Assembly: GCA_005883615.1 (NCBI GenBank)
Contig: VBEC01000073.1
Span: 62,001 to 126,000 of the forward strand
DNA from: Chloroflexota bacterium
Lineage (GTDB): Bacteria; Chloroflexota; Limnocylindria; Limnocylindrales; CSP1-4
Length of the DNA: 64,000 bases
Direction: 5' to 3'
Numbering within the stretch: position 1 is the first letter of the stretch; every line of letters begins with the position of its first letter. Made by a program: the position numbers and the translations under genes. Under the pieces are notes generated by a model that was not told the DNA's origin, made no database searches, and was given only the letters and a program-made list of their open reading frames with translations. Shown here piece by piece: positions 25,414-29,663 of this stretch.

Positions 25414-25788
25414 TGGTGGAGATGGGGGAGAGTCGAACTCCCCGTCCAGAGCCCTTCGCCAGAGACCTGCTACGAGCGTGTCCGATGGTTTGTCGTCGAC
25501 CGGGCGAGCGGCCATCGGCAGCCTACCGTCCGGTCCAGTCACGTGCCCCTAAATCGGGCTTTGCTCCGGACTACGCGACGCTACTCCAGAGCGCATCCCC
25601 GCTGAATGACGCTTCCACGACCCGCGGGGATGAGGTCGCTTCCACGCTCACCTTACTGCCTAAGCAGCGAGGGCGAGAGCAGTCTGGCGGTTGCCAGTTA
25701 CTTCGTTTTGCCGCCTGTTTAACGAGGCCTGACGGCACCTCGGCTCGCGTTCCCTGACAGCTGAACCCTGTCGAGACCACACATCCCC
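25414..25788 (-). ncRNA. ssrA: Transfer-messenger RNA (tmRNA)
   Basis: A 375-nt tmRNA that rescues stalled ribosomes. The mature 5' end GGGGATG (25788-25782) pairs with CATCTCC before the encoded ACCA 3' end (one G-U pair), forming the seven-pair acceptor stem. The TCGACAGGG sequence after the 5' stem and a T-arm with TTCGACT loop flanked by GGGAG/CTCCC are typical. The tag frame on the minus strand at 25695-25660 reads GNRQTALALAA then TAG; ALALAA matches the degradation-tag ending in Chloroflexus. The resume codon is taken as GGC after AGTAACT; a different upstream start of the same frame is possible. Its partner smpB is 1.8 kb away. Confidence 0.93.
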
Positions 25789-26537: not shown

Positions 26538-27590
26538 CTACCAGATATCGCCCACGGTGAAGCCGTCCGGATAGGGATCCTCGGGATCGACGACGTACGA
26601 GGCGAAGCCCGTGATCCAGGCTCGCCCGGTAAGAGTGGGAATGACGGCCCCCCGGTCGCCGATGGTCGTCTCCTCGACGAGGCGTCCGGTGAACACCGTG
26701 CCAAGGATGCCCTCGTGCCGGAAGTCCTCGTTCAGCCCGAGTCGGCCCTTCGCGTGCAGCACGGCCATCCTGGCACAGGTGCCCGTGCCACAGGGCGACC
26801 GATCGATAATGCCCGTCCAGGTCGAGGGCCGGTCCCAGTCGAGCTTCCCGGTCGAAACGGTGACGACATTGCGGCCGTGATTGTTCGGATCGTGGGGAGA
26901 TCCCGCCAGCTGGGCGATGGTGATGCCACCGAAGCCCGGTTGATCGGGGTGACTCACGGGCAGTTGTTCGGCGGCCGCGGCCTTGATCATCTCGCTCACG
27001 CGGACGATGTCGCGCCCTTCGTCGGGCGTCAGTCGAAAGCCAAGCGGCCCGGCGTCGGCAATGACGTAGAACATGCCGCCGTACGCGACATCCACGCTGA
27101 GCGTGCCCAGCTGCGGCACCTCGATCGCCGCGTCCAGGTAGGTCGCGAATGCCGGAACGTTCCGGAACGTCACGCCGCGCACCTTTCCGCCCACGCAATC
27201 CGCGCGGATGCGGATGAGGCCGGCGGGCGCCTCCAGCGTCAGCTCGGTGACCGGTTCGGTCATGGTTACCATGCCCGTCTCGAGGAGCGTCGTAACGACG
27301 CAGATCGTGTTGGTGCCCGACATGCCGGGGTATTCGACCTGCTCCATGATCACGTAGCCCGCGTCGGCATCGGGGCGTGTCGGCGGGAGGATGAGGTTGC
27401 AATTGGCGGCCGGGTAGCCGCGCGGCTCGCGCAGCATCCGCAGGCGCAGGTCGTCGGCGTGTTCCCGTAGCCAGCACATCTTGTCGAACATCGAGCCGCC
27501 CGGAACGTCCAGCACCCCGCCCACGATCACCCGGCCGGGCTCGCCAGCCGCGTGCAGGTCAACCGCCTGGATCATCCGGGCCAGCTGCAC
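26538..27590 (-). CDS. Proline racemase superfamily protein (Ser/Cys active site)
   Basis: A 350-residue member of the proline racemase superfamily, which includes 4-hydroxyproline 2-epimerases and trans-3-hydroxyproline dehydratases. The start GTG 27590 gives MQLARMIQAVDLHAAGEPGRV, matching the family start. The first catalytic position, Cys in classic MCGH racemases, is Ser here (YPGMSGTNTICV), while the second Cys is present in DRSPCGTGTCARMAVLH. Ser/Cys pairs are known among hydroxyproline-acting members, so true proline racemase activity is less likely; the exact reaction is inference. It begins five bases after the smpB stop and may be cotranscribed, though no functional link is evident. 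Confidence 0.88.
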   Translation of the reverse strand: MQLARMIQAVDLHAAGEPGRVIVGGVLDVPGGSMFDKMCWLREHADDLRLRMLREPRGYPAANCNLILPPTRPDADAGYVIMEQVEYPGMSGTNTICVVTTLLETGMVTMTEPVTELTLEAPAGLIRIRADCVGGKVRGVTFRNVPAFATYLDAAIEVPQLGTLSVDVAYGGMFYVIADAGPLGFRLTPDEGRDIVRVSEMIKAAAAEQLPVSHPDQPGFGGITIAQLAGSPHDPNNHGRNVVTVSTGKLDWDRPSTWTGIIDRSPCGTGTCARMAVLHAKGRLGLNEDFRHEGILGTVFTGRLVEETTIGDRGAVIPTLTGRAWITGFASYVVDPEDPYPDGFTVGDIW

Positions 27591-27595
27591 TGCGC

Positions 27596-28060
27596 TTACC
27601 GGCCCCGGCGGACGTCCGCGAGTTCGCGCGCGACCTCGCGGCGAGCGTCTCGCTCGGCGATGTCCCGGCGCTTGTCGTGAAGCTGCTTGCCGCGGGCGAG
27701 AGCCAGCTCCACCTTGGCGCGTCCACGATCGCTGATGTACAGGCGAAGCGGGACGATCGTCTGGCCCTTTTGCTTGGCACGGCCCAGCAGCTCATCGATC
27801 TGGGACCGGTGGAGGAGGAGCTTCCGCGTTCGCTTCGGTTCGTGATTGACGCGGTTGCCGCCCTCGAATGGCGCGATGTGGGCCCCGATGAGCCACGCCT
27901 CGCCGTGCTCGACGCGTGCGAATGCGTCGGACAGGTTGACCTTGCCACCCCGAACCGACTTGATCTCGGTTCCGGTCAGGACCAGCCCGGCCTCGAACGT
28001 CTCATCGATCGTGTATTCGTGCCGGGCTCGGCGGTTGAGGGCGATGGTGCGCTCGCCCAT
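27596..28060 (-). CDS. smpB: SsrA-binding protein SmpB
   Basis: A 154-residue tmRNA-binding protein required for trans-translation. The conserved LNRRARHEYTIDETFEAGLVLTGTEIKSVR, the GGNRVNHEPKRTRKLLLHR segment and PLRLYISDRGRAKVELALARGKQLHDKR are all present, as is the basic C-terminal tail (DARREVARELADVRRGR) that enters the mRNA channel. Length is normal. The tmRNA gene is 1.8 kb downstream in the same orientation, so both halves of the rescue system are close together. Confidence 0.96.
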   Translation of the reverse strand: MGERTIALNRRARHEYTIDETFEAGLVLTGTEIKSVRGGKVNLSDAFARVEHGEAWLIGAHIAPFEGGNRVNHEPKRTRKLLLHRSQIDELLGRAKQKGQTIVPLRLYISDRGRAKVELALARGKQLHDKRRDIAERDARREVARELADVRRGR

Positions 28061-28114: not shown

Positions 28115-28147
28115 ACGAACGCCGGTCCGTTGCGGACCGGCGTTCGT
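28115..28147 (-). terminator. Perfect 15-bp GC-rich hairpin, terminator-like
   Basis: ACGAACGCCGGTCCG (28115-28129) and its exact complement (28133-28147) form a 15-pair stem with a three-base TTG loop. It lies between the end of the candidate microgene and smpB. No T-run follows on either strand, so termination efficiency is uncertain; it could also stabilise an RNA 3' end. Confidence 0.6.
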
Positions 28148-28175
28148 TAGCGTTGCCACCACACAGGGTGTCCGC

Positions 28176-28226
28176 CTAAACGGCCATCTCCTGTGAGGTG
28201 GTGCAGCTACGCGAACTATCGATCAC
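28176..28226 (-). CDS. Candidate 16-residue microgene behind a perfect Shine-Dalgarno
   Basis: GTG 28226 opens a frame encoding MIDSSRSCTTSQEMAV, ended by TAG. Six bases before the GTG is AAAGGAGGTGA (28243-28233), a full-length complement of the usual 16S rRNA 3' end and the best ribosome-binding site in the window. A possible promoter lies upstream at 28284-28256 and a strong hairpin downstream at 28147-28115. An ATG within the SD (28234) would give only five codons. The peptide is unlike anything I recognise; it could be a leader, a secreted or modified peptide precursor, or simply an mRNA-binding element. Translation is unproven. Confidence 0.35.
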   Translation of the reverse strand: MIDSSRSCTTSQEMAV

Positions 28227-28255
28227 TGCACATCACCTCCTTTCGCTCGTATCGA

Positions 28256-28284
28256 ACCCTACCCGAAGCCCGATCAGGGTGCAA
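28256..28284 (-). promoter_or_regulatory. Possible promoter of the microgene/smpB region
   Basis: Minus-strand TTGCAC (28284-28279) and TAGGGT (28261-28256) are 17 bases apart, directly after the ctpA stop. Each matches consensus at three of six positions, so this is a tentative call supported mainly by the SD located just downstream. Confidence 0.35.
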
Positions 28285-28301: not shown

Positions 28302-29663
28302 TCACGCTGCCTCGAGCAGTCCGGACAGCGACGCGGACGATGCGTTGAGGGCCTTGAGAGCGGCGTCCAGGACCGCGTCCGAGCCCGCGGGCTGGTTGGC
28401 GGGGACCGTCACTGGGACGTCGGGCGTGAGCCCGACCTTGTTGATCCAGCGCTGCTTTGGCGTCAGCCATTTCGCAATGGTCAGGCGGAAGCCGCCGTTG
28501 TTGTCGTCGAGCGTTTGCCATTCCTGGATGGTTCCCTTGCCGTACGAGGTCTGTCCGACGAGCTTTGCCCGGCCGGTGTCCTGGAGGGCGCCGGCGACTA
28601 TCTCGCTTGCCGAGGCGCTGCCTTTGTCGATCAGGACGACCACCTGGATGGAGGGATCGGTGGCCACCCCACCTGGTTCGGCGGCCGTTGCCAGCGGATC
28701 GCTGTGGGCGCCCTGCTCCCACAGGATCGGGCCCGAGGCGATGAACTGGCTGGCGATCCGCCTGGCAGCCGTCACATAGCCGCCGGGGTTGCCACGAAGG
28801 TCGACGACGAGCTTCTTCTCGCCCGCCGCGATATCCCGCTTGAGCGCCGTTTCGAAGTCGCTCGCAGCCTGGTCGCTGAAGCCCGTGATCCGGACATAGC
28901 CCACCGTGCCCCCGGCCAGGTCCCGGGCGATGACCTCCTTCTCGACGATGACCTCGCGCGTGATCTTGAGTACGAAGGCGGGCGCGCTGCCGCGGGCAAT
29001 CGTGAGCGAGACTGCGCTACCCTTCGGTCCGCGCACCTTGGCGACCGCGGCGTCGACCGTGAGGCCGTCCACCGGTACGGCGTCGATGCTGGTGATGCGG
29101 TCACCCGCGCGGAGGCCCGCCTTGTCGGCGGGGGAGCCCGCGATCGGCTCGATGATCGTCAGGCCGCACGTGGGGCCAAGAGTCGCACAGTCGGTGTTCC
29201 TGCCGTCCGTCGACTTGCCACCGACGCTGGCGCCGATCCCTTCGAACTGGCCGGACAGGCCCTGCAGGCTCTTTGCGAAGTCGTCGGGAGTCATGTACCC
29301 CGAGTACGGGTCGCCGAGGGCATCGATCATGCCCTTGATGGCCCCGTCGATGACCGCCTTGCGATCGACGTCGCCGCCCGCGTAGTGGTCCGTGATGGCG
29401 CGATAGGTGTCCCAGAAGGGCTGGAATGCGCGTTCCTCGCTGACGGGCGTGCCGGGCGTCGTTGCGGCGCTGCGGCCGATGCTGTACCCGGACATGAAGA
29501 GCGTCCCGCCGGCGAGCAGGATCACGGCCAGGATCGCGACCCGGAACGGCAAGGCGAGTCTCCCGCTTCGTGCGACCGGGGGCACGGTTCCTGCGGCTGC
29601 AGGCTCTGCGGGAGACTGGTCGGAGGTCGGTTGGCTGGTCGGATCGAGATCTGCGACGGACAT
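28302..29663 (-). CDS. ctpA: S41-family C-terminal processing peptidase
   Basis: A 453-residue CtpA/Prc-type serine protease. A single N-terminal helix (FRVAILAVILLAGGTLFMSGYSIG, ~43-66) anchors it outside the membrane. A PDZ domain (~150-235, GLTIIEPIAGSPADKAGLRAGDRI) precedes the protease domain, whose Ser lies in VLIDKGSASASEIVAGAL and Lys in QTSYGKGTIQEW. The start ATG 29663 has AGGA nine bases before it; the longer frame to 29726 is not supported. In other bacteria such proteases process cell-wall hydrolases and their regulators, which fits its place next to ftsEX. Confidence 0.93.
   Translation of the reverse strand: MSVADLDPTSQPTSDQSPAEPAAAGTVPPVARSGRLALPFRVAILAVILLAGGTLFMSGYSIGRSAATTPGTPVSEERAFQPFWDTYRAITDHYAGGDVDRKAVIDGAIKGMIDALGDPYSGYMTPDDFAKSLQGLSGQFEGIGASVGGKSTDGRNTDCATLGPTCGLTIIEPIAGSPADKAGLRAGDRITSIDAVPVDGLTVDAAVAKVRGPKGSAVSLTIARGSAPAFVLKITREVIVEKEVIARDLAGGTVGYVRITGFSDQAASDFETALKRDIAAGEKKLVVDLRGNPGGYVTAARRIASQFIASGPILWEQGAHSDPLATAAEPGGVATDPSIQVVVLIDKGSASASEIVAGALQDTGRAKLVGQTSYGKGTIQEWQTLDDNNGGFRLTIAKWLTPKQRWINKVGLTPDVPVTVPANQPAGSDAVLDAALKALNASSASLSGLLEAA

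Follow-up and report, generated by a model that had tools for sequence, protein, structure and literature searches.

The RNA rnTrpL of Sinorhizobium meliloti is an attenuator RNA which encodes a 14-amino-acid leader peptide (peTrpL) and is also a dual-function small RNA (sRNA), and Spot 42 RNA encodes a 15-amino-acid protein (PMC10117765). The unit described here, located between ctpA and smpB on the minus strand (28115-28284) of a 64,000-nucleotide stretch of DNA from an uncultivated Chloroflexota bacterium (the window), appears to resemble these dual-function sRNAs in its working principle. Similar to rnTrpL, it is predicted to yield a very short transcript with a frame at or near the 5' end; similar to Spot 42, which has known mRNA targets, it would be an sRNA in its own right and at the same time the message for a peptide of about 15 residues. 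In contrast to rnTrpL, which is a leaderless trp attenuator, the unit carries a full Shine-Dalgarno (SD) sequence before its frame, and it lacks an amino-acid run, an overlap between its alternative helices P1 and P2 and the terminator, and a target gene fixed throughout the phylum. It differs from Spot 42 in the predicted SD-occluding switch that spans the frame.

Comparison of the window with the 4227 families of Rfam 15 gave no gathering-score match over the unit, the only match being the tmRNA elsewhere in the window, and none over the unit was obtained for 19 loci that carry it. The tmRNA gene (25414-25788, minus strand; tag GNRQTALALAA) lies 1.8 kb downstream of smpB, with a gene of the proline racemase family (26538-27590) in between; being a separate gene, it eliminates tmRNA as an identity for the unit. 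A weak match to CC2171 of Caulobacter (RF01867) was found at 28119-28252 on the minus strand, whose score of 23.9 bits, versus a gathering score of 75, is 51 bits below the cut-off and marks CC2171 as a look-alike and not as a family assignment; none of six genomes searched with the CC2171 model exceeded the cut-off. The two share a 5' block, GAAAGGAGGUGAU, followed by CAGUG, as well as a 3' GC hairpin, whereas the middle of CC2171 does not align and this RNA comes from Alphaproteobacteria. In the CC2171 consensus, too, a GTG and what may be a short frame (MSHC...) come after a full-length SD, and judging from these features this sRNA may be translated as well. Our literature search found no paper on the element described here, nor on CC2171 in Caulobacter. 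The unit, absent from both Rfam and Pfam, is probably an undescribed gene.

The initial annotation of the window had listed, in minus-strand order, TTGCAC, 17 nt, TAGGGT, AGCGAAAGGAGGTGATGTGCAGTG, a 16-codon frame and a perfect 15-bp hairpin. The promoter was located exactly as claimed, with the -35 box TTGCAC at 28279-28284 and the -10 box TAGGGT at 28256-28261, and the predicted RNA would begin near 28247-28250, about 8 nt downstream of the latter. The SD, the frame and the hairpin were likewise found in their annotated places: the full-length SD GAAAGGAGGTGAT occupies 28232-28244, the open reading frame MIDSSRSCTTSQEMAV extends from a GTG start codon (28224-28226) to a TAG stop (28176-28226 as a whole, the stop being at 28176-28178), and the GC-rich, terminator-like hairpin, here named P3, is found at 28115-28147. 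The SD had been called the best in 64 kb, and its core AAAGGAGGTGA (28233-28243) is indeed the sole match in the window, even when one mismatch is allowed; 0.45 such matches are expected by chance. What this account lacked are the two helices P1 (SD with the CTTS codons of the frame) and P2 (the same codons with RNA beyond the stop). The unit is flanked upstream by ctpA (S41 protease; 28302-29663, minus strand, start codon inferred; Pfam PF03572, E 1.5e-46) and downstream by smpB (27596-28060, minus strand; PF01668, E 1e-59).

The smpB gene was found in 96 of 107 genomes of the window's own family, labelled f1 (f-labels are those of the search tool), and the unit is present at 90 of the 91 smpB loci examined, which represent 27 genera; the sole locus without it is a contig stretch that ends too early. 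This comparison of the spacer in relatives, proposed by the initial annotation, found both SD and frame to be conserved, and the lack of conservation that would have spoken against the unit was not encountered. The f1 units were found via the position of smpB, and those of families f2 and f5 with a covariance model built from 60 units. Run on the order, this model located the unit in 35 of the 37 good genomes, and in f5, another family of the class, it found the unit in 19 genomes, again before smpB. The model together with pattern searches recovered the unit in four more Limnocylindria families and in further Chloroflexota families, among them some of Ktedonobacteria type. When approximately 85,000 genomes were scanned for an exact 20-base sequence, the matches listed (80 of 97 stretches) came almost only from Chloroflexota bins, mostly from Chloroflexi and from bins of Candidatus Limnocylindrales (class Candidatus Limnocylindria). 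A pattern allowing one mismatch matched 83 of 400 genomes of the phylum, versus none for its reversal. The extra matches of a looser SD pattern, also run over the phylum, are probably ordinary genes with strong SDs and were left out of the counts. Peptides and contexts were tabulated for 166 units in twelve family groups, among which f3, f6, f8/18, f17, f13 and f50 contribute one to three units each. Because the distant families were retrieved by patterns built on the SD, their SD statistics are biased, and it is the SD block and the general layout that suggest homology between the Limnocylindria units and those of the most distant families. The unit is normally single-copy, and the search for phage relatives gave none of substance.

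The promoter holds a fixed position. Among the 90 family units, TTG is found at -35 in 85, TANNNT at -10 in all 90 and a spacing of 17 nt in 77, and the -10 box is always located 8-9 nt 5' of the block AACGAAAGG. In every family group this box precedes by 7-11 nt the near-invariant AACGAAAGGAGGTGRTGTG, which is the 13-nt full-length SD, so that the RNA should start almost at the SD. The predicted transcript is about 135 nt long here and roughly 115-260 nt across the phylum. Promoter and hairpin are both conserved by sequence; a dual-function sRNA would be a stand-alone transcript with a promoter and a terminator of its own. The SD, nearly invariant in the 90 family units, is complementary over 13 nt to the canonical 3' end of 16S rRNA, the sequence used because this 3' end was not found in the assembly. 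Its bases A6, A7 and G8 are invariant although they lie outside P1, for which pairing with 16S rRNA is the simplest reason. In most families a second SD-like sequence, GAGGTG, is found a few codons before the stop of the mini-ORF (f4, f6, f18 and f50: L300, L308, L312, L314).

The frame itself is kept in all 90 family units, with a length of 14-17 codons (13-28 across families), and its stop codons occur at one aligned site (56 TAG, 25 TAA, 9 TGA). Start codon and CACCACC core are 17, 20, 23 or 26 nt apart, a distance that always equals 2 modulo 3, and core and stop are 22 or 25 nt apart, while the spacing from stop to P3 is mixed modulo 3. Mapped on the SmpB tree, at least 15 independent length changes fall within the frame, none of them off-frame, versus at least 32 phase changes after the stop. 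In f5 the start codon varies in type and position and the frame is kept. The in-frame length changes and the shared stop site support translation well, and this strong evolutionary evidence argues that the mini-ORF is a translated short frame of the kind carried by dual-function sRNAs.

Covarying base pairs were sought, as the initial annotation had advised, and all three helices gained from this: P3 covaries, P1 is supported and P2 shows compensatory changes. P1 (28195-28239) pairs the arm GAGGUG[AU]GUGCAG (28226-28239), that is GAGGUG, a 2-nt bulge and GUGCAG, with the codons CUGCACCACCUC (28195-28206) and thereby hides the SD. In 60 relatives 98.9% of its cells are paired, and the ATG-start variant L056 carries the matching compensatory change; P1 barely varies, so its covariation rests on few changes. 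The duplex of SD and ORF scores a z of about -3 versus shuffles in f1, f2 and f5, and is no better than shuffles outside Limnocylindria. P2 (28156-28202) joins ACCACCUCACAGG (28190-28202) to the post-stop sequence CCUGUGUGGUGG (28156-28167); it is present in the units of f1, f2 and f5, the latter two families having different sequences, and its compensatory changes include CGCAGG/CCTGCG, CACAGG/CCTGTG, CGGAGG/CCTTCG and CACCATC/GATGGTG. P1 and P2 use the same ORF codons and are mutually exclusive; their mean energies in f1 are about -21 and -23 kcal/mol, respectively, and the predicted minimum fold switches between them with the length folded. The Limnocylindria unit thus appears, from these predicted folds, to be a bistable SD switch which P1 closes and P2 opens. 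For the Ktedonobacteria-type units (f21), pairing between the ORF and the 3' region is better than in shuffles (z -3.7). Pairing of the SD with post-stop RNA, considered as a lock for the whole phylum, was no better than shuffles. P3, whose bases take part in neither P1 nor P2, has an energy of -29.6 kcal/mol (z -7.7) in the window and is 100% paired in 60 relatives, and in 5 of the 11 pairs counted both partners have changed. A U-rich tail follows it in most families outside f1; the f1 hairpin lacks this tail and is there only a putative terminator.

Isolated features of the unit are weak by themselves, since 36% of shuffles contain an SD match within one mismatch. What sets the unit beyond chance is its occurrence at 90 of 91 loci, the in-frame length changes, the covariation of P3, the support for P1, the compensation in P2 and the fixed position of the promoter. 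We consider it probable that the unit is an independent, translated, switch-like RNA gene, and that this RNA has a ribosome-sensing role is a tentative extension. The three options of the initial annotation, a leader peptide for smpB, a microprotein and a ribosome-capturing small RNA, fared differently, and it is the last, taken as a putative small RNA that engages ribosomes, for which the support is strongest.

The first rival holds that the unit is a cis-acting leader of smpB, in which read-through of P3 into smpB by RNA polymerase would depend on the translation of the mini-ORF. Throughout Limnocylindria the unit is directly upstream of smpB and co-directional with it, and in some f1 genomes the gap between P3, there devoid of a U tail, and smpB is only 20-30 nt; this leaves no room for a promoter, and co-transcription with smpB is likely in these genomes. 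Such adjacency is lost outside the class, where birA, greA or lysS follows, or a gene in convergent orientation, although in most cases the downstream gene is still co-directional, which together with the constancy of smpB in Limnocylindria leaves room for a cis role. Since the downstream gene varies to this extent, the unit has no dedicated target operon, and since P3 overlaps neither P1 nor P2, the switch comes without an antiterminator; on both counts the unit departs from a classical leader-peptide attenuator. Furthermore, smpB in f2 and f4 has its own promoter-like box 3' of the hairpin (GTTGGCGCGTACCCT; TAGTCT 6-7 nt before the start codon). The varied downstream genes, the smpB boxes and the U-tailed hairpins indicate that the unit behaves as its own gene, one that seems, from its genomic contexts, to lie before translation-related or housekeeping genes. 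A dedicated leader for smpB is thus not supported as a general role, and we regard this rival as unlikely.

Two observations concern these neighbouring genes. At the f4 loci L299-L306, TAGNCT-like -10 boxes are located 6-7 nt before the smpB start and directly after the unit's terminator, and f4 smpB looks leaderless from this spacing. In f6 (L308 and L309), an N-terminal frame resembling lysS is followed by a second, overlapping frame, alike in both genomes, which in L308 carries lysyl-tRNA synthetase domains; a split, duplicated or frameshifted gene is possible.

A second rival takes the product to be a functional microprotein, the RNA folds merely regulating its synthesis. The part of this option that stood is translation: frame, start and stop are maintained over several families. 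Some features of the peptide also agree with it, residue 3 being retained as D/E through GAC, GAT and GAA, and the Ktedonobacteria-type set having the motif RCTGS...HTFQxRG in common. The peptides of different families are, however, almost entirely different, and most conserved positions of the weakly conserved peptide, the CTTS core among them, follow the paired RNA. The C-T-T codons of this core are nearly without synonymous variation (TGC in 88, ACC in 86 and ACC in 87 of the 90 family units), which indicates that nucleotides and not the peptide are conserved and that RNA pairing explains the core. In addition, one f4 member (L299) is frame-shifted, in bins that may contain errors, and a Pfam search with four of the longer peptides gave no match. 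A microprotein is, in our estimation, rather doubtful.

A type I toxin-antitoxin-like mRNA of the hok kind, whose SD is kept inaccessible by a metastable fold, would share with the unit its SD-locking fold-back helix and two exclusive structures, but this is very improbable, since the translations are by inspection short and hydrophilic (rich in Ser, Thr, Cys and Arg) where a hydrophobic, membrane-spanning peptide is expected, the unit is near-universal at one site of the family, unlike mobile toxin loci, and an unsystematic look noticed no antisense RNA gene.

For the favoured reading, a switch-like RNA gene, the following working order can be proposed. A small structured RNA gene would carry the translated mini-ORF and be closed by the terminator-like hairpin. 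During transcription P1 would form first, and the 13-nt SD would let 30S subunits compete with it; a ribosome traversing the frame would clear the shared strand, and its exit would let P1 or P2 reform. The output would then lie in how the RNA folds, how stable it is or how it binds ribosomes, not in the peptide, and the RNA may in this way report or adjust the state of the ribosomes. In f1, read-through into smpB may add an effect in cis. A role in translation homeostasis is likely as our best guess, held with modest confidence.

A more specific and quite speculative version invokes 6S RNA, which mimics a promoter for RNA polymerase. The unit's RNA would be its ribosomal counterpart, with a 5' end that amounts to a near-perfect ribosome-binding site, the state of P1 and P2 setting the capture and release of 30S subunits and thereby tuning translation capacity. 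The likeness, which holds for this 30S-capture version only, lies in an RNA that imitates a nucleic acid on which a core machine works; the mimicked site would here be that of the 30S subunit, and unlike 6S RNA this RNA would also be translated.

Some carriers of the unit belong to lineages with cultured members (Ktedonobacteria-like), which makes experiments feasible. A full-length SD at the very 5' end of an RNA, codons of a translated frame that double as the lock of this SD, and a rival helix formed with post-stop RNA provide a clear and testable model of mutual control between translation and folding. If the 30S-capture version is true, such an RNA tunes translation capacity across much of Chloroflexota. 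More generally, if the unit is so widely kept, at one site in almost all genomes of a family and recognizably in several classes of Chloroflexota, and yet uncatalogued, it would represent a basic part of gene expression in bacteria whose RNA biology has received very little study.
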